Shown here: one piece after another, positions 2,580 to 18,701 of the stretch | How positions within the stretch are numbered: the first letter of the stretch is position 1 | Layout: every line of letters starts with the position of its first letter | Source: Paraburkholderia youngii | GTDB lineage: Bacteria > Pseudomonadota > Gammaproteobacteria > Burkholderiales > Burkholderiaceae | DNA: 64,000 nucleotides | Direction: 5' to 3' | Assembly: GCF_013366925.1 (NCBI RefSeq) | Contig: NZ_JAALDK010000002.1 | Location: 310,001-374,000, forward strand | Program-made: the position numbers and the translations under genes | The notes under the pieces: model-generated | Told to the model about the DNA's origin: nothing | Database searches by the model: none | What the model saw: the letters and a program-made list of their open reading frames with translations, nothing else

Positions 2580-3233
2580 ATGGTCACTAACACAGTACTT
2601 CTGATCGACGATCACGCGTTGTTTCGAAAGGGAGTCGCGCAACTCATTCAGATGAATCCCGCCTTCGAAGTGGTGGGCGAAGCGATTTCCGGAGAAGACG
2701 GCGTTGAGATGGCCGTGCGCCTGAAGCCGGACGTCATCCTGATCGACCTGAACATGCCGCGCATGAACGGGATCGAAACGTTGGACCGCATGCGCGAAGC
2801 CGGCGTCGAAGCGCGTTTCATCATGCTGACGGTGTCGGATAACGAGCGCGACGTGGTGGCCGCGTTGCGCGCCGGCGCGCATGGCTATTTGCTAAAGGAC
2901 ATGGACCCCGAGGACTTGTGCCTCTCGCTCGAAAAGGCGCTCAGGGGATCTGCCGTTCTCAGCGAGTCGGTGACGGGCGCGCTGGTTCATGCATTGTCGG
3001 GTGGCCAGCGCCTTCCTGTCACACAGAACGAGCTGACCGCGCGCGAGCTCGAGGTCTTCGACTTTCTGGTTGCCGGCCTGAGTAATAAGGCCATCGCGCG
3101 CAAACTCGATATCAGCGTCGGCACCGTGAAAGTTCATGTTAAGCACGTGCTGCGGAAGCTCGATCTTCACTCCCGGCTCGAGGCCGTGCTCTGGCAGCGG
3201 GAACACGGCGCGCGCGCGCACTCTTATTCATGA
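2580..3233 (+). CDS. NarL/FixJ-type response regulator
   Basis: This 217-residue protein has an N-terminal receiver domain with the acidic pair D10-D11, phospho-acceptor D56 in LIDLNMP, and the conserved lysine in YLLKDM near residue 106. A C-terminal LuxR-type helix-turn-helix lies at about 150-208 (LTARELEVFDFL, then GTVKVHVKHVLRKL). It should bind DNA when phosphorylated by the kinase encoded upstream. The start has a good AGGAAG ribosome binding site. It is a close paralogue of the regulator at 31458-32117: both share LLIDDHALFRK, TVSDNERDV and the entire recognition helix. The two may therefore recognise related DNA sites. Confidence 0.9.
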   Translation: MVTNTVLLIDDHALFRKGVAQLIQMNPAFEVVGEAISGEDGVEMAVRLKPDVILIDLNMPRMNGIETLDRMREAGVEARFIMLTVSDNERDVVAALRAGAHGYLLKDMDPEDLCLSLEKALRGSAVLSESVTGALVHALSGGQRLPVTQNELTARELEVFDFLVAGLSNKAIARKLDISVGTVKVHVKHVLRKLDLHSRLEAVLWQREHGARAHSYS

Positions 3234-3293: not shown

Positions 3294-4061
3294 TCAATTC
3301 GGCTGCTGCGCTTGCATCGCCCGCATAGGGATTCTCTGATCAGCATGAGTAGCACTATGCCCCCTGTGAAGACCGCCGAGCAAATCCGTCAGCTCGCCGA
3401 TGCGGTGAATGACGCGCAAGCAAGGCAACTCCGATACCGGGTGATTGTGGCTGTATCCGTAGCTGACGCACACCATCGGCATATTGGCCGCCTGTGCCGC
3501 GAGCGCATCCGTCACGCAATCGCCAACGAATAGCGTATGGGTCGGGTCGACGCCGAGCGCTTCGCACGCCTGCAGGAGTGGCTCGGGATCGGGCTTACGC
3601 GGCAAGCGGGCATTTGCATCGACCACCATGTCGAACCATGCATGCAAGCCGAAACGCCATATCAGCGGATCGACGAAGCGCGACTCCGAGTCGGTGACGA
3701 GGCCCAGCTTGAGACCCATCTTCCGCAAGCTGTCGAGCGTCGCTTCCGCGCCCGGGTAAAACTCGCTCAACTGGTTCTTATCGCGGCAGATCTGATGATA
3801 GGACGCCTCATAGCGGCGCAGGACCAGATCCAGTGTGGCGGGGCGCGCATCGATGCCGAGCAGCGTCAGCGCGCGATCGACGAGGATCTCTGAACCACCG
3901 CCTATCAACGTTTGCGCGACGCCAGGCGCGAGCAGGGGAAAACCGTTCTCGGCGAGTGCCCGGTTGAGCGCGTTGCCGATATCGGGCGACGTATGCAACA
4001 GCGTGCCATCGAGATCGAATAGCACGGCATCGATCGGCATATTGCGCGGCATGACTTGCAT
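3294..4061 (-). CDS. gph: HAD-family phosphatase, phosphoglycolate phosphatase-like
   Basis: This 255-residue HAD-superfamily hydrolase resembles phosphoglycolate phosphatase (Gph/CbbZ). Motif I is FDLDGTLLHTSPD with the nucleophile Asp; motif II lies near LVTDS; a lysine precedes PDPEPL (motif III); motif IV is FVGDCVTDALAA. A helical cap domain lies at about residues 20-95. The chosen ATG has an AGGAGA site 7 bases upstream; a longer in-frame start would reach into the kinase gene. It is the last gene of an operon with the FBPase-like protein and phosphoribulokinase. In autotrophs CbbZ removes 2-phosphoglycolate, but with no Rubisco nearby the real substrate is uncertain. Another sugar phosphate, possibly ribulose bisphosphate, is conceivable. 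Confidence 0.85.
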   Translation of the reverse strand: MQVMPRNMPIDAVLFDLDGTLLHTSPDIGNALNRALAENGFPLLAPGVAQTLIGGGSEILVDRALTLLGIDARPATLDLVLRRYEASYHQICRDKNQLSEFYPGAEATLDSLRKMGLKLGLVTDSESRFVDPLIWRFGLHAWFDMVVDANARLPRKPDPEPLLQACEALGVDPTHTLFVGDCVTDALAAQAANMPMVCVSYGYSHNHPVSELPCLRVIHRIGELTDLLGGLHRGHSATHADQRIPMRAMQAQQPN

Positions 4062-4105
4062 GTTCGTGTCTCCTGTCTGGTGAGTACAAGTGTTCCGGCG
4101 GATGG

Positions 4106-4978
4106 TCACAATGCCCGTTTCTGGCGGTCGATCATCTGCAGGATCATAGGGGTGAAGATCAATTGCATCGCAAGTCCCATCTTGCCGCCCGGAACGACGA
4201 TGACATTGGGCCGGCTCATGAACGAGTCATGCAGCATGGTGAGTAGATAAGGAAAGTCGATGCCCTTCGGATTGGCAAAGCGGATGACAACGAAGCTCTC
4301 GTCGGCGCTTGGTATGTCGCGGGCTGCAAACGGATTCGACGTGTCCACGGTCGGCACGCGCTGGAAGTTCACGTGCGTTCTGCTGAACTGAGGGCAGATA
4401 TGGTGAGCATAGTCCGGCATGCGCCGCAGGATCGTATCCATGACAGCCTCCCGCGAATAGCCGCGCAGCGCCTCGTCCCGATGAAGCTTCTGTATCCATT
4501 CCAGATTGATGATGGGGACGACCCCCACCAGCAGGTCCGTATGTTGTGCGACGTCGATGCCACGGCCGATAAAGCCGCCATGCAGCCCCTCGTAGAAAAG
4601 CAGATCGGTGGGCGGCTCGATGTCTGTCCACGGCGAGAACGTACCGGGGTCCACACCATACGGCGCAGCCTGGGCGTCGTCATGGAGGTATTTACGCAAC
4701 CTCCCCCGCCCCGTCGCCGAATACTCACGAAACAATTCCGCGAGTTCCTGCAGCAGATTCGCCTCAGGGCCGAAGTGGCTGAACTGGTGACGGTTTTCCT
4801 CTGCGGCTTTCATTGCAGACTGCATGCCCGCGCGGTCGAAGCGATGAAATGCGTCGCCCTCCACGATCTGCACGTTCAGCTTTTCGCGGCGGAAAATGTG
4901 CTGAAAACTGTTCATGACAGTCGTGGTACCGGCACCGCTCGACCCCGTTACCGCAACGATTGGATGTTTGATCGACAT
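4106..4978 (-). CDS. prkB: Phosphoribulokinase
   Basis: This 290-residue protein matches the proteobacterial class of phosphoribulokinase, which makes ribulose-1,5-bisphosphate from ribulose-5-phosphate and ATP. The P-loop is GSSGAGTTT at residues 12-20. The catalytic segment GDAFHRFDR places D42, H45 and R49 exactly as in characterised enzymes, and K164, R167, D168 and R172 in the QKLHRDEALR segment are intact. The gene sits 14 bp after the FBPase-like gene and 44 bp before the HAD phosphatase, with a GGAGC ribosome site. No Rubisco genes are in the window. In Methylobacterium/Methylorubrum extorquens, PRK is needed for methylotrophy because RuBP activates the serine-cycle regulator QscR. 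The neighbouring LysR genes and serine-cycle operon make the same role likely here. Confidence 0.95.
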   Translation of the reverse strand: MSIKHPIVAVTGSSGAGTTTVMNSFQHIFRREKLNVQIVEGDAFHRFDRAGMQSAMKAAEENRHQFSHFGPEANLLQELAELFREYSATGRGRLRKYLHDDAQAAPYGVDPGTFSPWTDIEPPTDLLFYEGLHGGFIGRGIDVAQHTDLLVGVVPIINLEWIQKLHRDEALRGYSREAVMDTILRRMPDYAHHICPQFSRTHVNFQRVPTVDTSNPFAARDIPSADESFVVIRFANPKGIDFPYLLTMLHDSFMSRPNVIVVPGGKMGLAMQLIFTPMILQMIDRQKRAL

Positions 4979-4992
4979 GCTCCAACCCCCAT

Positions 4993-6141
4993 CTACACGC
5001 GTGCTTCCGGGCGAAACAGGGAGCGCTCGTTGAAAAGCGGTGACGTGAATGGCGTGTCCTCGCCCCGATCGTGTTCCCAGTGGTATCGCTCGATACGCTC
5101 GACTTCACCCTGGCTGCCGACGAATAGCGGCGTGAGTGCATGCGCATCGGCGTCGACATCGAATATCCGTGCACGCCCCGAGCTGGCAAGTCCGCCCGCC
5201 TGTTTGAGGATCCAGGCGAGCGACTGCGCCTGATATAACAACGGTTGACGTGTCGCACTGGGCCCCCGGCGCCTTTCGCACGGGAAAAGACACAGGCCGC
5301 CGCGCATCAGCGTGTGGTGCGCATCGGCCGCCAACGAATCGTTCCAGCGTGTGTCGAAATCGCGCTGGCGCACACCCGCGCTTCCGTCACGGCACTCGTT
5401 CACATAACGCTGCACAGGCCGCTCCCACGAGCGCTCATTGCTGCAATCGATGGCGACCACAGGGCCTTGTTCGGGGATGCGCATTGCGTGATGCGTCAAC
5501 ATGAATTCGCCCCGTTGACGGCAAAGCGTGAACCCATGGGTGCCGCGCCCGACGGTGATCACCAGCATCGTGGAAGGACCATAGAGAGCGTAGCCAGCGG
5601 CAATCTGCTTCGTGCCGACGATCTCGCAGTCACCGTCATGGCTTCGCGCCTCTGTCTGCCGTATCGAGAATACGGTTCCGAGCGCAACGTTCGATTCGAT
5701 ATTGGCCACACTATCGAGCGGACTGGCAAACAGGACATATGGCCCTGCAACCGCAGGATGCCGCGCCTGCGCGCAATGCAGCACAATGCCCGCTTTCTGC
5801 GTCCTGCACTCGCTCGACGCGATGAAGGCTTCCTTCGCGGCATCACGGCACGACCCGCTATCTGGCGAGGCGCTCGCCACCTTCAGCGTCTGCGAATCGA
5901 CGATCGTACCCTGTGCGATACGCGCCGCAATGATTTTCGCCGCTTGCGCAATGCCCTGAAGAACGTTACGCAGCGAGACGGCATGCGGATCCTGCTCGAC
6001 GGCAAGCGCTTGCTCGCGGCCGGTGCCGAGGTGGGCCGCAAGAAAAACCGGCAGCGTCGGTTGGGTCACGATCGCCGCGGTACGTCGATTTCCTGCGCCA
6101 ACCGCCTGCGCATGCTCAGCTGATTCAATTCGTGCATTCAT
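4993..6141 (-). CDS. FBPase class I homologue with altered metal-binding site
   Basis: The 382-residue protein aligns along its length with class I fructose-1,6-bisphosphatase: [37 protein letters not shown] and EVERIERYH are all recognisable. Key catalytic positions differ, however. The metal-binding DPLDGSS motif reads SPLDSVA, with S140 replacing the first Asp while D143 remains. The metal-binding Glu of the LLYE motif is Q304. One of the paired glutamates of the SEE motif is also lost (SSE, E111). The NEG substrate segment reads DCS. The frame is intact and the GAGG ribosome site is good, so this is not a simple pseudogene. It leads the prk-gph operon. Loss of catalysis, a changed substrate or a regulatory role are all possible. 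Confidence 0.8.
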
Positions 6142-6236
6142 CGCTACCTCGATCGTCCATTGCTCGCCAGGACTGCTGACTAGAACGGTAAGCCAGCGCG
6201 TACTCGGGGAAAACTCAAATGTTTTTACTTGCGTTT

Positions 6237-6249
6237 TAAGCGATGCTTA
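6237..6249. promoter_or_regulatory. LysR-type T-N11-A palindrome
   Basis: TAAGC GAT GCTTA is a perfect T-N11-A dyad of the type bound by CbbR/QscR-like LysR regulators. It lies 25 bp upstream of the LysR start at 6275, in the 133-bp gap shared with the divergent FBPase-like/prk operon. It could serve both autoregulation and activation of that operon. Confidence 0.55.
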
Positions 6250-6274
6250 TCTGTCGCATCCAGGAGTGCCGATC

Positions 6275-7246
6275 ATGCTCAATCTCCTTCGCAATCTCAC
6301 GCTACGTCAGTTGCAGATCTTCTCTGCCGCCTCTCAATACGAGAGCTTCGCCCGCGCCGCGGAAACCCTGCACCTGACCCAACCCGCCGTCTCAATGCAG
6401 ATCAAGCAGCTCGAAGAGGCGATTGGAGTGCCTCTATTCGAGCGCATCGGCAGGCGCATTGCCCTGACCGAAGCGGGTATGACGCTTTCTCACCACGCAA
6501 AGCGGATTCTCGGTGACATCAAGGATGCCGAAGATGCGATGCGTTGCCTTTCATCGGCGGATGGCGGCAATATCTCCATCGGAATCGTCAGCACGGCCCG
6601 CTATTTCATTCCTCGCCAGATTGCGCGCTATGTGGAACGTCAACCCAAGGTCGATATCAGCTTTTCAATCGGCAAGCGTGATGTACTGCTGCGCCAGTTA
6701 CAGGACAATGAGATCGACCTCGCCGTCATGGGCCGGCCTCCCGTCGAGCTCGATGCGCACAGCGAGCCGCTCGCGTACAACCCGCATGTCGTCGTCGCGA
6801 GCACGAATCATCCTTTTATCGACGCCGCATGCTTCGACTTGCACGAAATGCGCAGCGAGACGTTTCTGATGCGTGAGCCAGGTTCCGATACGGAGGGCGT
6901 CGCGAGCGAAATGTTTCGCCATCATCTTTTCACTCCGGCCCGCACCCTCACCTGCGACAGCGACGAAACAATCAAGCAGGCGGTGGCTGCTGGCATCGGC
7001 GTCAGTGTGTTGCCGCTGCATACGTTACGGCTCGAACTGCTGACAGGCGAAGTGTCAGTCCTGCATGTCAACGGCACGCCCATTAACCGTGTGTGGCACG
7101 TGGTTCACATGAACGCGAAGCGGATGTCTCCGACCTGCGTGGCCTTCCGCCGTTTCTTGATCGAGAAGTCGGGTGCGTGGCTCGAAGGCCAGTTCGCCGA
7201 CCTCACCCCTATGGACCCGGCCGCCCGCCCCTTCGTGCAGATATGA
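6275..7246 (+). CDS. LysR regulator, CbbR/QscR type
   Basis: This 323-residue LysR-family regulator has a winged helix-turn-helix at about residues 8-67 (LTLRQLQIF, SFARAAETLHLTQPAVSMQIKQLEE). The effector-binding domain follows at about 95-300, with IGIVSTARYFIPRQIARY and LAVMGRPP typical of the CbbR branch. The ATG at 6275 has a GGAG site and starts at the usual LysR position; the open frame extends further upstream without homology. It is divergent from the FBPase-like/prk/gph operon, with a T-N11-A site between them. CbbR-type proteins respond to metabolites such as RuBP, phosphoenolpyruvate or NADPH. This one probably controls the prk operon. Confidence 0.88.
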   Translation: MLNLLRNLTLRQLQIFSAASQYESFARAAETLHLTQPAVSMQIKQLEEAIGVPLFERIGRRIALTEAGMTLSHHAKRILGDIKDAEDAMRCLSSADGGNISIGIVSTARYFIPRQIARYVERQPKVDISFSIGKRDVLLRQLQDNEIDLAVMGRPPVELDAHSEPLAYNPHVVVASTNHPFIDAACFDLHEMRSETFLMREPGSDTEGVASEMFRHHLFTPARTLTCDSDETIKQAVAAGIGVSVLPLHTLRLELLTGEVSVLHVNGTPINRVWHVVHMNAKRMSPTCVAFRRFLIEKSGAWLEGQFADLTPMDPAARPFVQI

Positions 7247-7275
7247 CGCACAAACCAGGCGAGCCGAAGTGCCGC

Positions 7276-7689
7276 TTACGGCCATCGTATGGTGCGCTCG
7301 ATAGTCACGCCGACAGCCTTCACGTTTGCGAACTTCGCTGGCTTCGCAATTGAAATGCGCACCCAATGCGCGTTGAAATCGGCCAATAGCATCTGCGCAA
7401 TCGACTCTGCCAGCGCCTCCAGCAATTTCACCCTATGGTTCACGAGTTGCAATTGCAGCGCCTCATGAACCTTGCCGTAGTCGATCGTGTCGGCAATAGC
7501 GTCCGTATCGCATGCGTGGCTATGCGGCACTCCGGCCCACAAGTCGATTCGCACGGGTTGCAGCGCAGTCAGTTCGTCGGGATCTATCCCGATGACGGTA
7601 TCGCCCTGAAAGCCTTCGATGAAGATCATGTCCATCCCCGACGAAGCGAGGTAGGGTCTCGCCGCGAGGTTTTTGTCGATCATATTCAT
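7276..7689 (-). CDS. folB: Dihydroneopterin aldolase-like protein
   Basis: The 137-residue protein belongs to the FolB family, which converts 7,8-dihydroneopterin to hydroxymethyl-dihydropterin in folate or methanopterin synthesis. Visible family features are FIEGFQGDTVIGID near residue 23, IDLWAGVPHSHA, DTIDYGKVHEAL, LLEALAESIAQ and the lysine-containing ISIAKPAKF. It follows the LysR gene by 39 bp on the same strand, with an AAGGAAA ribosome site, so the two probably form an operon. The cluster depends on tetrahydrofolate C1 carriers, so a dedicated extra FolB may raise pterin supply during growth on C1 substrates. Whether the product feeds folate or tetrahydromethanopterin cannot be told from the sequence. 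Confidence 0.85.
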   Translation of the reverse strand: MNMIDKNLAARPYLASSGMDMIFIEGFQGDTVIGIDPDELTALQPVRIDLWAGVPHSHACDTDAIADTIDYGKVHEALQLQLVNHRVKLLEALAESIAQMLLADFNAHWVRISIAKPAKFANVKAVGVTIERTIRWP

Positions 7690-7728
7690 GTGGTTTCCTT
7701 TTCGCTATGGTCGCGGGAGCTCCGGGGC

Positions 7729-8652
7729 CTAGGCTTGCATTGCGACGCGCTCGCCCGCCTCTTGCGCCCCGCTCATCAGGCTCTCCCTGAACGCGGACGC
7801 GGCTGAAGAAAGCTGCTTGGATTCTCTGTGCACCAGATACAAATACCGGAGGATCGGAAAGTTCTCGACGTCAAGCACCTTCAGTCGCAAGGTTTCCAAT
7901 TCGGCCATTATCGTTGCGAGCGCGACGACAGACAGTCCCATTCCCGCCTGCACGGCCCATTTGATGGCCTCATTGCTGCTCACTTCCATCCCGGGCCGCA
8001 AATTGATGCGATGCTCGGCAAAGAAGCGCTCTACCGCGCGGCGGGTTCCCGAACCCGACTCACGCATGAGAAAGGTTTCGCGTTCGATCGTGCTCAACGC
8101 GATGCGGCGCTCCCGTGCGAGCGCGTGATCGGGTGGCGCGATCATCACAAGCGGATTGCTCGCCACATGCACAGCGACCAGACCCTGTCCTTCAGGCGGG
8201 GCCCCCATGATCGCGACGTCCGTTTCGTTGGTAGCGAGCTCGTTGAGAACACACTCCCGATTCCCGACCGAGAGGCTCACCGTCACGCCAGGAAACGCGC
8301 GAGTAAATTTCGCGATCAACTGCAGTGCTAGCGGGTTGGCGGTGCCACTAACCAGGGACACTTTCAGCTTTCCTTGCTTCGTGTCGCGCAACTGGTCGAG
8401 CGACTCTTCGAGGACGGACAGTTGCTGTTGAAGCAGCCGCGTATGGTTGTAAAGCTCCTTGCCGGCCGCGGTCAGAAACACCTGTCTGCCGACCTGTTCG
8501 AACAGCGGCATACCGACGATCGCTTCGAGCTGCTTCAATTGCGACGAAACGCCTGGCTGAGTCAGGTGAAGCTCCCTGGCTGCGCGCGAAAAGCTCAGAT
8601 GCCGCGCGCTCGCTTCGAATACCTGTAACTGGCGCAAAGTCAGATGCAGCAT
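7729..8652 (-). CDS. LysR regulator of serine-cycle operon, QscR/CbbR-like
   Basis: This 307-residue LysR protein has the helix-turn-helix at about residues 2-60 (LTLRQLQVFE, SFSRAARELHLTQPGVSSQLKQLE) and a CbbR-like effector domain (LSVGNRECVLNEL, DVAIMGAPPEG, MGLSVVAL). The start at 8652 has an AAGGAA site; a longer frame adds 19 residues without family match. It is divergently transcribed from glyA and the serine-cycle genes, the arrangement expected of QscR, the LysR regulator of serine-cycle operons in Methylobacterium. A TTA-N9-TAA dyad lies between them. It is a paralogue of the LysR at 6275-7246. RuBP made by the nearby phosphoribulokinase is the most likely effector, by analogy. Confidence 0.88.
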   Translation of the reverse strand: MLHLTLRQLQVFEASARHLSFSRAARELHLTQPGVSSQLKQLEAIVGMPLFEQVGRQVFLTAAGKELYNHTRLLQQQLSVLEESLDQLRDTKQGKLKVSLVSGTANPLALQLIAKFTRAFPGVTVSLSVGNRECVLNELATNETDVAIMGAPPEGQGLVAVHVASNPLVMIAPPDHALARERRIALSTIERETFLMRESGSGTRRAVERFFAEHRINLRPGMEVSSNEAIKWAVQAGMGLSVVALATIMAELETLRLKVLDVENFPILRYLYLVHRESKQLSSAASAFRESLMSGAQEAGERVAMQA

Positions 8653-8953
8653 CGCTTTTCCTTGCCTCCCGAATGCCCGGGCCGCACGCTCGAAGCGGCC
8701 TGATTTCACGCCTCAACTCTATCAGCCGGGCTTGGGCGCGCAATGCCCATGAAGAGGTACTCCGCAAGGCGAAAAGGCCGTCCTGCAAGGCTCGCATGCA
8801 GGGTTATGGGTCGAATAAGTAAGCCGAATGAGTGTTTCCGCGTGCATGGCGCTACGATCGTTTCACAGGAATGCCAACCAGCCGACCGCAGCAAAGCGGC
8901 AAGGGAACGCGCGGGTTGCCGAGTGAACGACTCCACTAAAGCGAGGTTCAGCC
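8653..8953. other. Divergent control region of serine-cycle operon
   Basis: This 301-base gap separates the minus-strand LysR gene from glyA. No gene was seen in it. It contains the LysR-type dyad at 8804-8818, about 135 bp ahead of glyA, and a GAGG-type ribosome site just before the glyA ATG. No convincing sigma70 hexamer pair was identified, consistent with an activator-dependent promoter. Confidence 0.5.
8804..8818. promoter_or_regulatory. LysR-type dyad upstream of glyA
   Basis: TTAT GGGTCGA ATAA is a perfect dyad that includes a T-N11-A core, the shape recognised by CbbR/QscR proteins. Its place between the LysR gene and the serine-cycle operon makes it the best candidate operator for that regulator. 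Confidence 0.5.
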
Positions 8954-10276
8954 ATGTTCAGCTACAAAAACACGATTGCGGTGACGGACCCCGAACTGCA
9001 TCGGGCCATCGCAGGCGAGACTCAGCGCCAGCAGGACCACATCGAGCTGATCGCATCCGAAAACTACACGTCGCCCGCCGTACTGGAAGCGCAAGGGTCG
9101 CAATTGACCAACAAGTACGCGGAAGGTTATCCGGGCAGGCGTTACTACGGCGGATGTGAACATGTCGACCTGGTCGAGCAACTCGCGATCGACCGCGCAA
9201 AGCAGTTGTTCAACGCAGAATATGCAAACGTTCAGCCCCACTCGGGCTCGCAGGCCAATCAGGCCGTGTATCTCTCCGCACTCAAGCCGGGCGACACGAT
9301 TCTCGGCATGTCGCTCGCGCATGGCGGGCACCTCACGCACGGCGCCTCCGTCAACGTGAGCGGCAAGCTGTTCAATGCGGTGTCGTATGGCCTGAATCCG
9401 GATACGGAAGTCATCGACTACGACGAAGTACGCAAGCTGGCACAGACGCATCGCCCGCGCATGATCGTCGCAGGCGCGTCAGCCTATTCGCTCGTGATTG
9501 ACTGGCAATGCTTTCGCGAGATCGCCGACAGCGTCGGTGCAACGCTGCTCGTCGACATGGCGCACTATGCCGGTCTCATCGCGGCGGGACTCTATCCCAG
9601 TCCGGTCGGCATTGCAGATTATGTGACCACCACCACTCACAAGACGCTGCGCGGGCCACGTGGCGGGCTGATTCTCGCCCACGCACAAGCGGCGAAGGCG
9701 ATCGACTCGACGATCTTTCCAGGCATCCAGGGCGGCCCCCTGATGCACGTGATAGCGGGCAAAGCAGCCGCCCTGCGCGAAGCGATGACCGGCGAATTCC
9801 GTCAATACCAGCAACAGGTACTCCTGAATGCGCGAGTCATGGCGCAAACGCTTCAGCAACGCGGCCTTCGTATCGTGTCGGGACGCACCGACTCACACGT
9901 GTTCCTGGTCGATCTGCGCGCGAAGAACGTGACAGGCAAAGAGGCCGAAGCCGCGCTTGGCCGCGCACTCATAACCGTCAACAAGAACGCCATTCCCAAC
10001 GATCCGCAAAAGCCGTTCGTCACGAGCGGCGTGCGCATTGGCTCGCCTGCCATCACGACACGCGGCCTGCGCGAAGCCGAAACGAGCGAGCTTGCCCATC
10101 TGATCGCCGACGTGCTGGATGCGCCCGCCAACGATCTCGTCATCCGCCGCACAGCCGACGCCGTGCTCGCCCTCACCGCGAGGTTTCCGGTCTATCGCGA
10201 TGGGCCCGTCGCCACGACGCCCGGCGCGTCTGCGAACGACGACGCATCGGCCGCAACTGCGCGCACCGCGCACTGA
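8954..10276 (+). CDS. glyA: Serine hydroxymethyltransferase
   Basis: The 440-residue PLP enzyme adds the C1 unit of methylene-tetrahydrofolate to glycine to give serine, the entry step of the serine cycle. Family marks include [14 protein letters not shown] near residue 34, [23 protein letters not shown], and [14 protein letters not shown] with K230 as the PLP lysine. The last 25 or so residues (Ala/Thr/Asp-rich) are an extra tail not needed by the family. It is the first gene of the serine-cycle operon, and the next gene starts 44 bp later. Burkholderiales carry a separate housekeeping glyA, so this copy is probably dedicated to C1 assimilation. Confidence 0.96.
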
Positions 10277-10320
10277 AACCTCCAGACGATTTCTCACGAC
10301 CACTACCCAAGGAGACAGTC

Positions 10321-11568
10321 ATGTCAAACACGCCAGTCACGCGCATTCCGGGACGTAACATCCTCGCAGTCCCCGGTCCGACGAACATTCCCGACGCCGT
10401 ACAACGCGCGATGGTCGTATCGATGGAAGATCACCGCTCGACGAAGTTTCCCGAACTCGCGCATGGTCTGCTTTCCGATCTGAAAACGCTCTACCGGACG
10501 GCAGACGGCCAGCCCTTCATCTTTCCGTCGTCAGGCACGGGCGCGTGGGAAGCGGCTCTCACCAACACGCTCTCGCCCGGTGACCGCGTTCTCGTTCCGC
10601 GCTTTGGCCAGTTCAGCCACCTTTGGGCCGATATGGCGCAGCGTCTCGGACTCGACGTGGAAATTCTCGATGTCGATTGGGGCGAAGGGGTGCCCGTCGA
10701 ACGGATCGGCGAGATCCTGAAGGCGGACCGCCAGCATGCGATCAGGGGCATCCTCGCCTGCCACAACGAAACTGCGACGGGCGTGACGAGCGATATCCGC
10801 GCACTGCGCCGCGTGATGGATGACGCGGGCCACCCTGCCTTGCTGTTCGTGGACGGTGTGAGTTCGATCGGCTGCATCGACTTCCGCATGGACGAATGGG
10901 GCGTGGATCTCGCCGTGACCGGCTCGCAAAAAGGTCTGATGCTGCCTGCGGGACTCGGCATCCTGTGTGTGAGCCAGAAGGCGCTGAAGATGATTACGCA
11001 GGCGAAATCGCGCCGCTGCTACTTCGATCTCGCCGATATGGTGCGCGCCAACGCAACCGGCTACTTCCCTTACACGCCTGCGCTGTCGCTCCTCTACGGG
11101 CTGCGCGCAGCGCTCGACCTGCTGTTCGACGAGGGTCTCGACCGGGTCTTCGCACGCCACCACTACCTCGCGTCTGGCGTGCGCGCCGCCGTCGCGGAAG
11201 GCTGGGGTCTGGAGTTGTGTGCAAAGGCGCCAAAGTGGCACTCGGACACGGTCTCGGCAATCGTCGTGCCCCAAGGGTTCAACGCCGCACAGGTCATCGA
11301 CACGGCCTTTCGCCGTTACAACCTCGCGCTCGGCGCCGGGCTCTCGAAGGTCGCCGGCAAGGTATTCCGCATCGGCCACCTCGGAGACCTGAACGAACTG
11401 ATGCTGATGAGCGCGATAGCGGGCGCGGAGATGGCGATGCTCGATGCCGGTATCGACGTTTGCCCGGGCAGCGGCGTGGGTGCAGCCGGGCAGTACTGGC
11501 GCACCCACACGCAAGCCGCGGCAGACCCCGTCGCCAAGCCGGCGCTGCGCCGTGTCGCCGCGGCCTGA
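10321..11568 (+). CDS. sgaA: Serine-glyoxylate aminotransferase
   Basis: The 415-residue class V aminotransferase moves the amino group from serine to glyoxylate, giving hydroxypyruvate and glycine. It shows the N-terminal NILAVPGPTNIP motif, FPSSGTGAWEAAL near residue 60, FVDGVSSIG, and TGSQKGLM with K204 as the PLP lysine. The start is an ATG with a CAAGGAGA ribosome site. An open frame runs on upstream inside glyA but is only a shadow. Its position between glyA and hydroxypyruvate reductase fixes its role in the serine cycle: it regenerates glycine for GlyA and passes hydroxypyruvate to the next enzyme. Confidence 0.95.
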   Translation: MSNTPVTRIPGRNILAVPGPTNIPDAVQRAMVVSMEDHRSTKFPELAHGLLSDLKTLYRTADGQPFIFPSSGTGAWEAALTNTLSPGDRVLVPRFGQFSHLWADMAQRLGLDVEILDVDWGEGVPVERIGEILKADRQHAIRGILACHNETATGVTSDIRALRRVMDDAGHPALLFVDGVSSIGCIDFRMDEWGVDLAVTGSQKGLMLPAGLGILCVSQKALKMITQAKSRRCYFDLADMVRANATGYFPYTPALSLLYGLRAALDLLFDEGLDRVFARHHYLASGVRAAVAEGWGLELCAKAPKWHSDTVSAIVVPQGFNAAQVIDTAFRRYNLALGAGLSKVAGKVFRIGHLGDLNELMLMSAIAGAEMAMLDAGIDVCPGSGVGAAGQYWRTHTQAAADPVAKPALRRVAAA

Positions 11569-11650
11569 TTGCGGCGGTCTCGATGAAATCTTCAGGCCGA
11601 GGCGCGTCAGATCGCAATCCTTCCGATCACTCTATGGCAGGAATGACATC

Positions 11651-12607
11651 ATGCAACACGAAATCGTCTTTCTCGACCGATCGACATTGAACGCCGATGT
11701 CCGTCGCCCGGCGTTCGAACATGGGTGGGTTCAGTTCGCGTCGACATCGTCGCACGAGGTCGCGCATCGGCTCGAACGCGCGACCATCGCCATCACCAAC
11801 AAGGTGCCGCTGCGAGCCAATGTGCTCGAAAGGCATCCGTCGATCAGGATGATCGCAGTGGCGGCGACGGGCTACGACTGTGTCGATACCGAGTACTGCC
11901 GCGAGCGTGGCATCGCGGTCGCGAACATTCGCAACTACGCGACCCATACCGTGCCCGAGCATACCTTCGCGCTGATCCTCGCGTTGCGGCGCAACCTGCT
12001 CGCTTACCGCAGCGATGTGTCGCGCGGGCGCTGGCAACAGGCAAAGCAGTTCTGCTTCTTCGATCATCCCATCCGTGACCTGCACGGTTCGACGCTCGGC
12101 ATCATCGGCGGCGGCGCTCTGGGCCAGGCAACGGCACAGATTGCCCGGGCCTTCGGTATGCGTGTCGTCTTTGCGGCTCACGACGCGAAGCGCTCCCGCT
12201 CGCCAGACCTCGAATACGTCTCGCTCGACACGCTGCTGCGCACGTCGGACGTCATCTCCGTGCATGCGCCGCTCACCGCCGCCACGCGCAACCTGATCGG
12301 ACTCGACGAGTTGCGCCTCATGAAGCGTAGCGCTCTGTTGATCAACACGGCACGAGGCGGGCTCGTGTGCGAGGCGTCGCTTGCCACTGCACTCAAGGAA
12401 GGACTAATCGCGGGCGCAGGCTTCGACGTGCTGAGCCAGGAGCCGCCTGTCGCGGGCAATCCCCTGCTCGGGCTCGATTTGCCCAACTTCATCCTGACCC
12501 CGCACGTCGCCTGGGCTTCCGGCAATGCCATGCAGTTCCTCGCGGACCAGCTGATCGAGAACATCGAGGCATTCGCGCGCGGCGAGCCCCGCAACCTCGT
12601 GGTCTGA
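11651..12607 (+). CDS. hprA: Hydroxypyruvate reductase (glycerate dehydrogenase)
   Basis: This 318-residue D-2-hydroxyacid dehydrogenase reduces hydroxypyruvate to D-glycerate with NAD(P)H. The Rossmann fold is marked by [17 protein letters not shown] near residue 155. Catalytic landmarks are the Arg in [10 protein letters not shown], a Glu in LSQEPP, and the His in LTPHVAWAS. Substrate-side motifs [10 protein letters not shown] and [14 protein letters not shown] are also present. The gene lies 82 bp after sgaA. The next serine-cycle enzyme, glycerate kinase, is not in this operon or elsewhere in the window. Confidence 0.93.
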
Positions 12608-12668
12608 GCGCCACGGGACCACGCATAACCTCGCAACGCAAACGACGCAAACCACCGGAGACACCGAT

Positions 12669-13856
12669 ATGGACATTCACGAATATCAGGCCAAGGACCT
12701 GCTGGCTGGGTTCGGCGTGCCGATCCAGCGCGGCGCGGTCGCCTACACACCTGACCAGGCCGTGTACTGCGCGACGGAACTCGGCGGCTGGCATTGGGCC
12801 GTCAAGGCTCAGGTCCACTCTGGCGCGCGCGGCAAGGCGGGGGGGATCAAGCTATGCGAGACCTACCACGACGTGCATGAAGCGGCCACGGGTCTCTTCG
12901 GCAAGCGCCTCGTGACGGCGCAGACGGGACCGGATGGCAAGATCGTCGAGCGTGTCTACATCGAGGTCGCGGAGAGATTCGAAAGGGAAATCTATCTCGG
13001 TATCGTGCTGGACCGCAAAGCCGAACGTGTGCGCGTCATCGTTTCCGCCCACGGTGGCATGGATATCGAAGAGGTCGTGCACACGAACCCGGAAGCCGTG
13101 CTCCAGACAGTCGTCGAGCCCGCCGTCGGCTTGCAGCCATTCCAGGCGCGCGAACTCGCCTTCGGACTCGGCCTGAACATCAAGCAGGTGAGCCGCGCGG
13201 TGTCCGCGATCATGGGCGCATACCGGGCGTTTCGTGACCTCGATGCGACGATGGTCGAAATCAATCCGCTCGTCGTGACCGATGACGATCGCGTCATTGC
13301 CCTCGACGCAAAGATATCGTTCGACGACAACGGCCTGTTTCGGCATCCGCACGTCTCGGAGATGCGCGACCCGACGCAGGAGGATCCCCGTGAGGCCGAG
13401 GCCGCTCAGTTTGGCCTGAACTATGTTGGGCTCGACGGCGATATCGGCTGCATCATCAACGGCGCCGGGCTCGCGATGGCCACCATGGACACGATCAAAT
13501 ATGCCGGGGGCGAGCCCGCCAACTTTCTCGACGTCGGCGGCGGCGCATCGCCCGAGCGCGTGGCGGCCGCGTTTCGCCTCGTGCTCTCGGACGGCAACGT
13601 GTCGGCCGTGCTCGTCAACATCTTCGCCGGCATCAATCGTTGCGACTGGGTCGCCGAGGGCGTCGTACGGGTGGCCCGGGGGCTGACGGTGCCTCTCGTG
13701 GTACGCCTCGCGGGGACCAACGTCGAGGCGGGGCGACGCATCATCAAGGACAGCGGCCTGCCAATCATCACAGCAGATTCGCTGCTGGAAGCGGCGCAAA
13801 AGGCCGTCGAGGCCTCGAAAGCGCATCGTGCGCGCCGCGCGGCCAACCACAGATAA
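12669..13856 (+). CDS. mtkA: Malate-CoA ligase, beta subunit
   Basis: The 395-residue protein resembles the succinyl-CoA synthetase beta subunit: N-terminal ATP-grasp ([33 protein letters not shown]) and a C-terminal ligase domain ([30 protein letters not shown]). In the serine cycle, malate thiokinase makes L-malyl-CoA from malate, ATP and CoA. Its placement directly before the alpha subunit, PEP carboxylase and malyl-CoA lyase separates it from the TCA-cycle enzyme, which normally sits with 2-oxoglutarate dehydrogenase genes or alone. A GGAGA ribosome site precedes the ATG. mtkB follows 11 bp later. Confidence 0.94.
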
Positions 13857-13867
13857 GGACTACCGAC

Positions 13868-14773
13868 ATGAGCATCCTGATCGACGAAACCACTCGCGTC
13901 ATCGTACAGGGATTTACAGGTGACAAGGCCTCATTCCACGCGAAAGAGATGATCGCCTATGGGACGAACGTGGTCGGCGGCGTGACTCCCGGCAAGGGAG
14001 GAAAGCATCACCTCGAGCGACCCGTGTTCGACACCGTGAAAAACGCCGTAAGCGAAACAGGCGCAACTGCGAGCCTCGTGTTCGTGCCGCCCCCTTACTG
14101 CGGCGACGCCATCATGGAAGCCGCCGACGCGGGCCTGAAACTCGTCTGTGTGATCACGGACGGCATTCCGGCGCAGGACATGATGCGCGTGAAGCGCTAT
14201 CTCCTTCGCTATCCGAAGGAGACCCGAACCTTGGTGGTCGGTCCGAACTGCGCGGGCATCATCAGCGCGGGACGCGCGATGCTCGGCATCATGCCCGGCC
14301 ATATCTACCGCCGCGGCAATGTCGGCATCGTCTCGCGCTCGGGCACGCTCGGTTATGAAGCCGCTGCGCAACTCAATGCGCTCGGCCTCGGCGTCACCAC
14401 GAGCGTGGGCATCGGCGGCGACCCGATCAACGGCAGCTCGTTTCTCGACCACCTGAAATTGTTCGAGCAGGATCCCGAAACCGAGGCTGTCGTGATGATC
14501 GGGGAAATCGGCGGGCCGCAAGAGGCCGAAGCGGCCAGGTGGGTCAGCGAGCATATGACCAAACCTGTCGTCGGCTATGTAGCGGGCTTGACCGCGCCCA
14601 AAGGACGGCGCATGGGACATGCGGGCGCCATCATCTCGGCAGCGGGCGACAGCGCGGCCGAAAAAGCGCAAATCATGCAGTCCTACGGTCTCGCGGTTGC
14701 GCCCAGCGCGTCCGACCTGGGTTTCACGGTTGCCTCTGTGCTCGAACAAAATGTCACGCGCCGCGTTGCCTGA
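13868..14773 (+). CDS. mtkB: Malate-CoA ligase, alpha subunit
   Basis: The 301-residue alpha subunit of malate thiokinase has an N-terminal CoA-binding domain (VIVQGFTGDKASFHAKEM, GTNVVGGVTPGKGG) and a C-terminal ligase domain. The phosphohistidine is H251 in RMGHAGAIIS. The GPNCAG and SRSGTLGYE motifs are intact. The start lies 11 bp after mtkA, so translation is probably coupled. The last 23 bp overlap the most likely start of ppc. Together with mtkA it activates malate for cleavage by malyl-CoA lyase. Confidence 0.94.
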   Translation: MSILIDETTRVIVQGFTGDKASFHAKEMIAYGTNVVGGVTPGKGGKHHLERPVFDTVKNAVSETGATASLVFVPPPYCGDAIMEAADAGLKLVCVITDGIPAQDMMRVKRYLLRYPKETRTLVVGPNCAGIISAGRAMLGIMPGHIYRRGNVGIVSRSGTLGYEAAAQLNALGLGVTTSVGIGGDPINGSSFLDHLKLFEQDPETEAVVMIGEIGGPQEAEAARWVSEHMTKPVVGYVAGLTAPKGRRMGHAGAIISAAGDSAAEKAQIMQSYGLAVAPSASDLGFTVASVLEQNVTRRVA

Positions 14774-17663
14774 CTGGGGCTATGGCACAGACACACAGTC
14801 CGACCCGCCGCGCGTCGAGACTGTGCGCCCCCTCCATGCGCTCGGACACACCGCCGACGACGGGCTGCACAAGCTCGCAGCGGCCTCGGCGTCCTTGCCC
14901 ACGCTCAGCGCGGAGAACTATGAGCACGCAGTGATCGACCTCCTGTCGCAACTGTTGTGCGACGTCGCGCGCGCCCATCAGCCCGAGGTGGAACGTTCGT
15001 TGCGCGGCGAGTCCGCACACGAGTCGATGAGCGAACTGATGCACGAACGGATGAACGATCGCACCGCGCGCGTCGTCCTGCGACGCATGCTGCAGGCCCA
15101 GGGCATGTGGTTCCAGTTGCTCAGCATCGCCGAGCAGAGCACCGCCATGCGCCGGCGCCGCGAGATCGAGATCGAAGGCGGCTACGACCGGCTGCCTGAC
15201 TCGTTTGCACGGGTCATCGCCGAAGTCGCCGGCGCCGGCGTCCCCGCCGCCGCAGTTCGCCACGCGCTGAGCCATCTGAAGGTGCGGCCGGTGCTGACGG
15301 CTCACCCGACCGAAGCGAAGCGAGTCACCGTGCTCGAAAGCCACCGGCGCGTCTACCGGCGTCTAATGGAACTCGAATCCCCGCGCTGGACGCCGCGAGA
15401 GCGCTACACGCTCGTCCTCGCGCTCCGCAACGACATCGAACTCTTGTGGATGAGCGGTGAATTGCGGCTTGAAAAGCCCACCGTTGCGCAGGAAGTCGCA
15501 TGGGGACTGCACTTCTTCGGCGAAACGCTTTTCGAAGCCGTGCCGCAACTCATCGACAAGCTGCAGAGCGCGCTCGAGCGTTGTTATCCGGGCGAGCGAT
15601 TCGACATGCCGCGCTTTTTCCAGTTCGGCTCGTGGATAGGCGGAGACCGCGACGGCAATCCATTCGTCGATGACTGCGTCACACGCGCCACCTTGCACGA
15701 GCACCGGGCCGCGTCTCTCAAGCGATACCGGCTACGTCTCGTCGAGTTGACGCAGATGCTCAGCATCACGTCCGAAGCGCTGCCCGTACCGGACAGTTTC
15801 CACGCAGCGTTGGCTCGCGCGCTGACGCGCAGCGGCGAACCCGGGCCGATCGCATCGCGCAATCCGGGGGAATTGTTCCGGCAATACCTGACCTGCATCC
15901 TGCGCCGCCTCGATGCGACGCTCGTCGACATCAATCAGGCGAGCCACGCTTCGCCGGTTGCGGGCGCATACGCGAGCGCGGATGATCTGGCGGCCGATCT
16001 GCTCGTGATCGAGCAGGCGCTGCTCGCGACACAAGGCCAGCAGCTCGCACGGATGCTCGTGCGGCCGCTGCGTCATGAAGTCGAGACGTTTCGCTTCAGC
16101 ACCGTGCAACTCGACCTGCGCCAGAACACAACGGTCATCGGGGAAACGCTGCGCGCGCTGTGGCGCGCGACATGCGGGACCGCGGGCGAACCGCCCGCGA
16201 GCGACTCGCCCGAATGGAAAGCATGGCTGATCGGCGAACTGGGAAAGCCCTTGGAGAGCGAAGCGCAAAGAACCCGCCGTTTCGAATCACTGCCGCCCGA
16301 CGAAGCGCAGACACTGCAGATGTTCCGTACGGTGCTCGAAATGCGTCAACGGGTGGACCGTCATGCGTTCGGCGCGTTCATTCTGAGCATGACGCATCGA
16401 GCGAGCGACGTGCTCGGCGTCTATCTGCTGGCAAAAGAAGCCGGCCTCTTTTCCGACTCGCTCGGCACCGAGAGCTGCACGTTGCCCGTCGTGCCCCTGC
16501 TCGAAACCATCGACGACCTGCGCCGGGCACCCGAGATACTGCGCGAGTTGCTGGCTGTGCCGATGGTCCGTCGCAGCATACGCGCGCAAGGCGGCGTGCA
16601 GGAAGTCATGATCGGCTACTCCGATTCAAACAAGGATGGCGGCTTTCTCGCCAGCAACTGGGAACTGTCGAAGGCGCAAACGAAGCTCAAGCGGCTTGGC
16701 GACGAGCTTGGCGTCACGATCGCGTTTTTTCATGGACGCGGTGGATCGGTGAGCCGCGGCGGCGTTCCCGCTGGCCGCGCCATCGCCGCGCTGCCCGCCG
16801 GTTCGGTCAATGGACGTTTTCGCGTCACCGAACAGGGTGAAGTGGTCTCGTTCAAATATGCGAATCGCGGCACGGCGCAGTATCACGTCGAATTGCTTGC
16901 ATCGAGCGTACTTGAACATACGCTGAAGTCCGAGCGGGAGGACGCATTGTTGCCCAAGGGCGAATTCGACGAGGCGATGGAAGCGCTCAGCGGCGCGTCG
17001 CGGGCAGCGTACGTGAAGTTCATCGAACAGCCTGGCATGCTTGCGTATTTCCAGGCCGCCAGTCCGCTCGAAGAACTGTCGATGCTCAACATGGGCTCGC
17101 GCCCTGCCCGCCGGTTTGGCGCAAAGAGCCTCGAGGATCTGCGTGCGATTCCGTGGGTGTTCGCATGGGCGCAGAACCGGCATGCGCTCACTGGCTGGTA
17201 CGGCGTCGGCAGCGCGATAGAGGGCTTTCTCGCGGTACGCCAGGAGCGCGGCGCCGAGCTGCTGCGGCGGATGTTCGACGAGTCACGGGTGTTCCGGCTC
17301 GTCATCGATGAAGTCGAGAAAACGCTGGCACAGGTGAACCTGACTATCGCGCGCGAATACGCGAGCCTCGTGCAGGATGCCCACATCCGCGACACGATCT
17401 TTTCACAAGTCGAAGCCGAATACCGGCTCACCGTGAAGATGGTGCAGGCCGTCACGGGTTCGGCCGGCCTGGGCACGCGCTTTCCGAAGTTCAGCGCCCG
17501 CCTGCAGCGGCGCGTGCCCGCCATCGACCTCATCAGCCGGCAACAAATCGAACTGCTGCGCCTCTACCGCACGGCGGAGACCGAACGGCAGCGCCGGGCC
17601 TATCAGGTGCCCCTGCTGCTTTCCATCAACTGCATTGCGTCAGGCTTCGGCGCGACGGGCTGA
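14751..17663 (+). CDS. ppc: Phosphoenolpyruvate carboxylase
   Basis: This 970-residue enzyme carboxylates PEP to oxaloacetate, the CO2-fixing step of the serine cycle. Catalytic segments are VLTAHPTEAKR (H185), GYSDSNKDGGF (K628) and FFHGRGGSVSRGG. The C-terminus ends in GFGATG, close to the usual -NTG end. The start is uncertain: the ATG at 14751 overlaps mtkB by 23 bp and has no clear ribosome site, while a GTG at 14823 is an alternative that would shorten the N-terminus by 24 residues. The first convincing family match begins near LHALGHTADDGLHKLAAAS. Its place between mtkB and mcl matches the mtkA-mtkB-ppc-mclA order of known serine-cycle methylotrophs. Confidence 0.94.
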   Translation: MSRAALPDWGYGTDTQSDPPRVETVRPLHALGHTADDGLHKLAAASASLPTLSAENYEHAVIDLLSQLLCDVARAHQPEVERSLRGESAHESMSELMHERMNDRTARVVLRRMLQAQGMWFQLLSIAEQSTAMRRRREIEIEGGYDRLPDSFARVIAEVAGAGVPAAAVRHALSHLKVRPVLTAHPTEAKRVTVLESHRRVYRRLMELESPRWTPRERYTLVLALRNDIELLWMSGELRLEKPTVAQEVAWGLHFFGETLFEAVPQLIDKLQSALERCYPGERFDMPRFFQFGSWIGGDRDGNPFVDDCVTRATLHEHRAASLKRYRLRLVELTQMLSITSEALPVPDSFHAALARALTRSGEPGPIASRNPGELFRQYLTCILRRLDATLVDINQASHASPVAGAYASADDLAADLLVIEQALLATQGQQLARMLVRPLRHEVETFRFSTVQLDLRQNTTVIGETLRALWRATCGTAGEPPASDSPEWKAWLIGELGKPLESEAQRTRRFESLPPDEAQTLQMFRTVLEMRQRVDRHAFGAFILSMTHRASDVLGVYLLAKEAGLFSDSLGTESCTLPVVPLLETIDDLRRAPEILRELLAVPMVRRSIRAQGGVQEVMIGYSDSNKDGGFLASNWELSKAQTKLKRLGDELGVTIAFFHGRGGSVSRGGVPAGRAIAALPAGSVNGRFRVTEQGEVVSFKYANRGTAQYHVELLASSVLEHTLKSEREDALLPKGEFDEAMEALSGASRAAYVKFIEQPGMLAYFQAASPLEELSMLNMGSRPARRFGAKSLEDLRAIPWVFAWAQNRHALTGWYGVGSAIEGFLAVRQERGAELLRRMFDESRVFRLVIDEVEKTLAQVNLTIAREYASLVQDAHIRDTIFSQVEAEYRLTVKMVQAVTGSAGLGTRFPKFSARLQRRVPAIDLISRQQIELLRLYRTAETERQRRAYQVPLLLSINCIASGFGATG

Positions 17664-17717
17664 GCGCCCTTGCGCCGGTCCGCGGCTCGCCTATTCAACA
17701 ACCCAGGAGATTTCACC

Positions 17718-18701
17718 ATGAGTTTCACTGTCATCGAGCAGGCCAAAGCACGGTTGCACCGTTCCGAGTTAGCCGTCCCCGGTTCGAACACCGCGATGTT
17801 CGAAAAGGCCGCACGTTCGGCCGCGGACATCGTCTTCCTCGACTGCGAAGATGCCGTCGCGCCGGACGACAAGGAGCAGGCACGCAAGAACATCATCGAA
17901 GGACTCCACGACATCGACTGGGGAAACAAGACGATGATGGTCCGCATCAACGGACTCGACACGCATTACATGTATCGCGATGTCGTCGATATCGTCGAGG
18001 CATGCCCGCGCCTCGACATGATCCTGATCCCCAAAGTCGGCGTGGCTGCCGACGTGTACGCCGTCGACATGCTCGTCACGCAGATCGAAACGGCACGCAA
18101 TCGCACACGACGGATCGGCTTCGAGGTGCTGATCGAAACCGCGCTCGGCATGGCGAACGTCGAGAGCATCGCTCAGTCGAGCCGGCGGCTCGAAGCCATG
18201 TCGTTCGGCGTCGCGGACTATGCGGCCTCGACGCGCGCGCGCACGACGGTGATCGGCGGCGTGAATCGCGATTACGGCGTGCTCGCGGACAAGAATGAGC
18301 GCGGCGAACGCGACTACTTCTGGGGCGATCAGTGGCATGGCGCACAAACGCGGATGATGGTCGCCTGCCGCGCGTACGGTCTGCGTCCCATCGATGGACC
18401 GTTCGGCGACTTCAGCGACCCCGATGGCTACATAGCAGCAGCCCGCCGCGCCGCCGTGCTCGGCTACGAAGGCAAATGGGCCATTCATCCGTCGCAGATC
18501 GAACACGCGAACCAGGTGTTCACGCCCGCCGAAGCGGAAGTGACGAAGGCGCGCCGCATCATGGACGCCATGGCACAAGCCGCACAGGAAGGCAAAGGCG
18601 CGGTATCGCTGGATGGCCGCCTGATCGATGCCGCCAGCATCCGGATGGCCGAGGCGCTGCTCGCGACGGCCAGCGCGATCGGCAATGACAGCAGCCGTTA
18701 G
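17718..18701 (+). CDS. mclA: L-malyl-CoA lyase
   Basis: The 327-residue HpcH/HpaI-type lyase splits malyl-CoA into glyoxylate and acetyl-CoA, closing the serine cycle. It shows RSELAVPGSNTAMFEKAARS, FLDCEDAVAPDDKEQAR (acidic metal-binding residues), MMVRINGLDT, VLIETALGM, and WAIHPSQIEHAN near the C-terminus, all typical of Mcl. The chosen ATG has an AGGAGA site. It is the last gene of the operon; 85 bp separate it from the convergent folD. Its glyoxylate feeds SgaA directly, while acetyl-CoA would need an ethylmalonyl-CoA or glyoxylate route that is not in this window. Confidence 0.95.
   Translation: MSFTVIEQAKARLHRSELAVPGSNTAMFEKAARSAADIVFLDCEDAVAPDDKEQARKNIIEGLHDIDWGNKTMMVRINGLDTHYMYRDVVDIVEACPRLDMILIPKVGVAADVYAVDMLVTQIETARNRTRRIGFEVLIETALGMANVESIAQSSRRLEAMSFGVADYAASTRARTTVIGGVNRDYGVLADKNERGERDYFWGDQWHGAQTRMMVACRAYGLRPIDGPFGDFSDPDGYIAAARRAAVLGYEGKWAIHPSQIEHANQVFTPAEAEVTKARRIMDAMAQAAQEGKGAVSLDGRLIDAASIRMAEALLATASAIGNDSSR

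Follow-up and report, generated by a model that had tools for sequence, protein, structure and literature searches.

Results

An intact phosphoribulokinase at a locus without Rubisco genes

The window analyzed here, a stretch of 64,000 nucleotides from Paraburkholderia youngii, corresponds to contig 2 positions 310001-374000 of a 9.49-Mb genome. On its minus strand, it carries a gene for phosphoribulokinase (PRK; prk) together with open reading frames (ORFs) for a fructose-bisphosphatase (FBPase)-like protein and a HAD phosphatase, three genes that we refer to as the module. LysR1, the first of two neighboring LysR regulators, is transcribed away from the module, and the second, LysR2, is divergent from a full serine-cycle operon (Table 1). 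An initial annotation of this DNA had described this layout, and family profile matches confirm it; the gene list given there had missed the FolB-family gene that separates the two regulators. The PRK had been called intact, and indeed its active site is complete, with the P-loop, D42, H45, R49, K164, R167, D168, and R172 all present.

The same annotation had presented the locus as a case of PRK without Rubisco. This holds within the window, where the genome's own cbbL, used as a query, finds no match (its matches lie elsewhere in the genome); cbbL, cbbS, and cbbX are all missing at the locus. It fails at the genome level. A whole-genome search located a form I cbbL on contig 1 at position 3317154 (447 bits), followed by cbbX, fbp, prk, fba, and rpe. 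This Calvin-Benson-Bassham (CBB) operon is linked to the one-carbon (C1) oxidation genes fae, mch, and mtdB and to a gene for a pyrroloquinoline quinone (PQQ) methanol/ethanol-family dehydrogenase, and a CbbR that is 62% identical to LysR1 is encoded about 24 kb from its cbbL. Since the contig 1 operon has its own, separate prk, the window prk, which is 74% identical to it, is an additional copy. A second protein with a RuBisCO_large domain is encoded in the same genome at C2:551231-552070 (215 bits).

Table 1. Genes and candidate regulatory sites of the module and the adjoining serine-cycle operon (window coordinates)
Feature	Position	Strand	Evidence or remark
HAD-IA phosphatase, phosphoglycolate phosphatase (CbbZ) type	ORF 3294..4109	-	Likely start 4061, from relatives
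Phosphoribulokinase (prk), additional copy	4106..4978	-	NF011997, 490.5 bits (cutoff 362)
Class I FBPase-like protein, predicted inactive	4993..6141	-	243 bits (cutoff 349)
Divergent promoter region	6142..6274	no strand	Dyad TAAGCGATGCTTA at 6237-6249, candidate LysR1 site
LysR1, CbbR clade	6275..7246	+	NF045990 CbbR, 256 bits (under the cutoff of 450)
FolB-family (dihydroneopterin aldolase) gene, between LysR1 and LysR2	7279..7692	-	PF02152, 91.4 bits
LysR2, CbbR family, divergent from the serine-cycle operon	7729..8652	-	NF045990, 236 bits (under the cutoff of 450)
Candidate LysR2 operator GGTTATGGGTCGAATAA, upstream of glyA	8802..8818	+	Conserved block among relatives
Serine-cycle operon glyA, sga, hprA, mtkA, mtkB, ppc, mcl	8954..18701	+	Family matches

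Distribution of the module in Paraburkholderia

We surveyed 144 Paraburkholderia genomes, that of P. youngii included. A window-type prk (at least 84% identity; next best, 76%) is present in 17 of them, and mtkA (at least 89%; next, 60%) and, among the best 16 candidates per genome, LysR2 (at least 67%; next, 48%) are found in the same 17. In 16 of these, prk and mtkA share a contig, 8 to 34 kb apart; in G062, they are on two contigs. The initial annotation had stressed the physical linkage of these functions, which is tight in the window (about 8 kb from prk to mtkA) and in G072 (10 kb) and looser in the other 14 genomes (24 to 34 kb). The genome search flagged one stop codon in LysR2 of G134 (L192) and in mtkA of G079 and G134.

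Across the genus, a prk match was obtained in 74 of the 144 genomes and a form I Rubisco in 72. The only two prk-bearing genomes lacking form I Rubisco, G046 and G062, both carry the module; no RuBisCO_large match (E value of 0.001) and no second prk were found in either. The remaining 15 module genomes have form I Rubisco. A further prk is present in 13 of the 17, and in G008 and G087 the module prk is the only one.

PRK is strongly conserved, and its neighbors are decayed to different degrees

The active-site residues of PRK are intact at all 17 module loci, and the window prk is 84 to 92% identical to its 16 relatives. Its median dN/dS is 0.053 in the 11-locus subclade that contains the window and 0.042 in a 4-locus subclade. 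The corresponding values are 0.114 and 0.101 for lysR1, 0.150 and 0.133 for the HAD gene, and 0.271 and 0.410 for fbp; the CBB copies of the genus (n = 14) give 0.088 for prk and 0.210 for fbp. Pairs that include the window's own prk have a dN/dS of 0.060, versus 0.051 among the other ten loci. The module prk is thus under strong purifying selection.

The FBPase-like protein reaches 243 bits, versus 524 for the genome's own contig 1 CBB copy, and its DPLDGSSNI motif has become SPLDSVANI. The metal ligands of FBPase, which we take to be E97, E98, D118, D121, and E280 (pig numbering), are reduced to one of five in the window and to one or two of five at the 17 module loci, where the reading frame is nonetheless intact. 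All five are kept in 14 reference FBPase rows and four in the Caballeronia glathei copy; three CBB copies of the genus with Rubisco and two Methylobacterium-type copies also retain one of five. The FBPase-like protein therefore looks like a retained pseudo-enzyme, whose decay is not tied to Rubisco loss. We rejected such decay as a mark of Rubisco loss, since 3 of the 14 CBB copies of the genus (G021, G053, and G108) lack the motif and have a cbbL at most 4 kb away. The motif is also gone from the CBB copies of G110 (C48, L273) and G070 (L274), where Rubisco is present. In all five of these copies (L119, L123, and L124 for the first three), the degenerate motif reads DPLN..., pointing to recurrent decay in the genus.

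The HAD protein falls below the cutoffs of both TIGR01449 (169.2 versus 180 bits) and NF009695 (178 versus 225 bits). In the window, DLDGT and the other three HAD motifs are intact. DLDGT is likewise preserved at 13 of the 17 module loci and reads DLAS in G046, G062, G079, and G134. The idea that this phosphatase generally removes ribulose bisphosphate (RuBP), put forward in the initial annotation, is abandoned, since 4 of the 17 loci, including those of both Rubisco-free genomes, have lost the catalytic DxDGT motif. Such a role is possible in the window's species.

LysR-fbp-prk arrangements beyond the genus

A draw of 398 genomes across the phylum contained mtkA at an E value of 1e-150 in 22; among the 21 others, 15 were tested and six, of one genus, were left out. 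A prk is present in 10 of these 15 genomes and a LysR at an E value of 1e-38 in 8. Five genomes of a single genus, presumably Methylobacterium-like, encode their sole such LysR 1.1 to 1.3 kb from prk with an fbp-like gene in between, and no cbbL was found in the 20 kb fetched around these pairs. Accordingly, LysR-fbp-prk without Rubisco is not unique to Paraburkholderia. In these five genomes and the Methylobacterium aquaticum plasmid pMaq22A_1p, the FBPase is intact in four of six cases and degenerate in two. The degenerate copies (L257 of G310 and L215 of pMaq22A_1p) keep one of five metal ligands and lie between a CbbR-family LysR and prk, in a lineage distant from Paraburkholderia.

Two CbbR-family regulators with conserved pockets and promoter sites

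For LysR1 and LysR2 alike, the best family is CbbR in a Rhodobacteraceae model, with both scores under the cutoff (Table 1). In quick trees, LysR1 groups with the CbbR near the genome's own CBB operon (support of 91), and LysR2 groups with CbbRs adjoining Rubisco in G245, Nitrobacter, and Cereibacter (98, with a warning for long branches). The prk-linked LysRs of the Methylobacterium-like genomes, which are presumably QscR, form a clade of their own (100, quick tree) that does not include LysR2. Both regulators had initially been described as QscR/CbbR-like; their membership in the CbbR family stands, and the quick tree lends no support to orthology of LysR2 to QscR. Because of its position outside that clade, LysR2 was probably recruited to the serine cycle independently of Methylobacterium.

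The residues with which NdhR binds 2-phosphoglycolate and CmpR binds RuBP are listed in the available part of PMC13249358, and we mapped them through alignments of the LysR1 and LysR2 sets. The 17 LysR1 and 17 LysR2 proteins show no change at R130, N164, R195, T201, or R267; four other LysRs of the genome keep 0, 0, 0, and 2 of the five. In P. youngii, LysR2 additionally keeps the S226 and N227 equivalents.

Both candidate operators, in the regions of 6237-6249 and 8804-8818, were confirmed to lie in blocks conserved among relatives, and the two sites differ from each other. The dyad TAAGCGAYGCTTAT occurs in the LysR1 promoter at every one of the 11 loci in the window subclade, and the other 6 loci carry variants of it. 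Allowing 3 mismatches, the LysR1 motif is found 8 times in the window versus 5.1 expected and is therefore not enriched. Upstream of glyA, GGTTATGGGTYGRATAA is exact at 16 of the 17 loci, with one change in G047; it is also the only match in the window, which is not independent evidence because the pattern was drawn from the site. No match to either site with up to 2 mismatches was found in the 40 kb retrieved from the genome's own CBB region (L093 and L094). LysR1 would bind the site in its own promoter and LysR2 the one upstream of glyA.

Traces of a probable former CBB operon

In G008 and G087, a cbbL is found between LysR1 and fbp, preceded by a conserved LysR1 site; it is absent from the locus in the other 15 genomes. 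These two cbbL genes form their own deep branch (99, quick tree) outside the CBB clade of the genus, and a recent insertion of the genus CBB Rubisco into G087 or G008 is therefore not favored. In the prk tree, the 17 module genes cluster with that of C. glathei (99), next to the clade of CBB prk genes of the genus (99). The simplest reading is that the locus is an old second CBB operon from which Rubisco was lost in 15 of 17 genomes. The PRK and cbbL trees, the base of which is open, would also allow a gain of Rubisco in the ancestor of G008 and G087.

Similar remnants are seen at a tetrahydromethanopterin (H4MPT)-linked CBB locus in G023 (C20, L271) and G034 (C180, L272), where a degenerate fbp and a short piece of cbbX accompany a prk of intact length, with no cbbL in the 20 kb fetched. 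The locus of G072 (C81, L270) is the same, except that its contig ends about 0.9 kb past the cbbX fragment. All three genomes have a form I Rubisco elsewhere, with a further prk. At L155, L163, L165, and L166, H4MPT-linked genes (a GHMP kinase like beta-RFAP synthase, an mtdB-like gene, mch, and a RimK-like ATP-grasp gene) are situated between LysR1 and folB or upstream; they are missing at the equivalent place in the window and in G072. In C. glathei (L003, 4068-8400), the mch and ATP-grasp matches are in two pieces, and prk, fbp, and the HAD gene are near full length.

Neighboring genes

A type III glutamine-synthetase-like gene (TIGR03105) and glutamate-synthase-like genes, followed by sarcosine-oxidase-like genes, are located downstream of the serine-cycle operon; together they presumably represent an N-methylglutamate pathway of methylamine use. 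A NarL-type regulator at 31479-32102 is the second of its kind in the window and is 70% identical to that at 2580-3233.

Discussion

We put the probability at about 60% that the locus is a second CBB operon, which lost its Rubisco and has been retained to supply RuBP as a signal. PRK would convert ribulose-5-phosphate and ATP into RuBP, which would bind LysR1 and LysR2 and thereby set how strongly the module and the serine cycle are expressed. LysR1, as a CbbR, would control the module itself, and LysR2 would activate the serine-cycle operon when RuBP, and hence pentose phosphate and ATP, is available. Assimilation would thus start once there is enough pentose phosphate and ATP. In G046 and G062, there would be no Rubisco to drain RuBP, and the HAD phosphatase is degenerate there. 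In favor of this reading are the concordance of prk, mtkA, and LysR2 in the genus, the two module carriers in which no Rubisco was detected, the absence of cbbL from the locus in 15 of 17 genomes, the intact and conserved PRK, the pockets kept in both LysRs, the second Rubisco-less CBB locus of G023 and G034, and the precedents in Methylorubrum and Methyloversatilis described below. The parts themselves are thus backed by sequence; the identity of RuBP as the ligand, the direction of regulation, and the loss rather than gain of Rubisco are what we infer.

Several observations weigh against this interpretation. The P. youngii genome has Rubisco and a second prk, so RuBP has another source and the window prk could feed Rubisco. 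The concordance of prk, mtkA, and LysR2 in 17 genomes reflects a linked block inherited together, not 17 independent events, and prk went unmatched in 5 of the 15 mtkA-bearing genomes tested elsewhere in the phylum. In C. glathei, LysR1 is down to a fragment, and yet prk is retained. As for ligand recognition, two methylaspartate-linked LysRs keep four of the five pocket residues, indicating that the pocket marks a wider family and not RuBP sensing alone; moreover, the CmpR K106 and N227 equivalents vary, with the N227 position being D in LysR1 and the K106 position N in LysR2 of this species. Formyl-tetrahydrofolate (formyl-H4F), NADP+, and acetyl-CoA are described as other effectors of QscR in the accessible part of PMC3486813. 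FBPase decay, seen also in Rubisco-bearing CBB operons, is by itself no proof of a changed role. Finally, repression of prk in Methylococcus capsulatus, an organism with Rubisco, yields a positive fitness score, according to the available portion of PMC13108547.

The linkage of the contig 1 CBB operon to C1 oxidation genes and the form I Rubisco of 15 module genomes would suit an auxiliary Calvin enzyme, with the module PRK adding RuBP for the contig 1 Rubisco during growth on methylamine or formate and its place beside C1 genes ensuring coexpression. We regard this as unlikely, since the module persists in G046 and G062, where Rubisco has no match, the contig 1 operon has its own prk, and the module FBPase has lost catalytic residues in all 17 cases. 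RuBP might also act via LysR1 only, on the module and its neighbors, with LysR2 answering to another metabolite, such as formyl-H4F, acetyl-CoA, or 2-phosphoglycolate. The difference between the two promoter sites, the placement of LysR1 and LysR2 in different CbbR-family clades, and the other effectors of QscR (PMC3486813, in part) are in line with such a division. The retention of the five invariant pocket residues and of the S226/N227 equivalents in LysR2 makes it improbable. That the locus is a decaying relic, a dying CBB operon whose PRK is not yet lost, is highly doubtful despite the missing cbbL, the degenerate FBPase, the four degenerate HAD proteins, and the fragments in C. glathei, given the low dN/dS of prk, also in the window's own pairs, the intact PRK active sites, and the conserved promoter blocks.

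Beyond the retention of the locus as a source of RuBP signal, we speculate, with little confidence, that RuBP is a dedicated second messenger and that C1-linked CBB operons repeatedly dropped Rubisco. The dead FBPase would then bind bisphosphates and modulate either PRK or the RuBP pool, and the system would have arisen independently of Methylobacterium through the recruitment of another CbbR-family protein. If the locus does serve as a source of RuBP signal, the production of a Calvin intermediate purely for signaling would not be peculiar to Methylorubrum and would have arisen repeatedly, out of old Calvin operons. A prk, a CbbR, or an adjoining FBPase is an unsafe marker of CO2 fixation. 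G046 and G062, with a PRK and no detectable Rubisco, are natural test genomes.

Comparison with known systems

Within the open-access literature searched, we found no account of a prk module lacking Rubisco in Paraburkholderia. In Methylorubrum extorquens, control of the serine cycle by PRK, RuBP, and QscR was reportedly described by Ochsner in 2017, as related in papers citing that work. The available portions of the literature state that QscR of this organism is RuBP responsive and activates the serine cycle (PMC8388818) and that RuBP made by PRK activates CbbR (PMC4806589). Both systems combine PRK, a serine cycle, and a CbbR-family LysR (PMC8388818 and PMC11252147, each in part). They differ in that qscR is not near the serine-cycle genes according to the accessible part of PMC2680597, while the regulator here is divergent from the serine-cycle operon; the genome of P. 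youngii also has a CBB operon with Rubisco. The Methylobacterium-like genomes share with the window a CbbR-family LysR near prk and an fbp-like gene between them; in contrast, the serine-cycle genes are distant in G171, the one genome fetched for that region.

Methyloversatilis universalis FAM5, likewise a betaproteobacterium, has both a serine cycle and a CBB operon and carries a second prk, the locus tag of which neighbors those of Fbp3 and CbbR in the available part of PMC5023235. During growth on methanol and methylamine, this Prk reaches 381 and 484 reads per kilobase per million mapped reads (RPKM), versus 27 and 32 for CbbP of the CBB operon, with values of <50 counted as not expressed (PMC5023235, same part). 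The neighboring tags there differ in including transketolase, GAPDH, Pgk, Pyk, and Fba, and that portion of the paper shows no serine-cycle genes beside Prk and takes up no role in signaling.

The CBB operon of Cupriavidus necator pHG1 has the order cbbL, cbbS, cbbX, HAD, rpe, fbp, prk, tkt, and gph. The window locus differs from it by the absence of cbbL, cbbS, and cbbX and by an FBPase that is predicted to be inactive. In both, fbp, prk, and a gene of the phosphoglycolate phosphatase type lie near a CbbR gene, and LysR1, a regulator of the CbbR clade, is divergent from the module, as in CBB operons.

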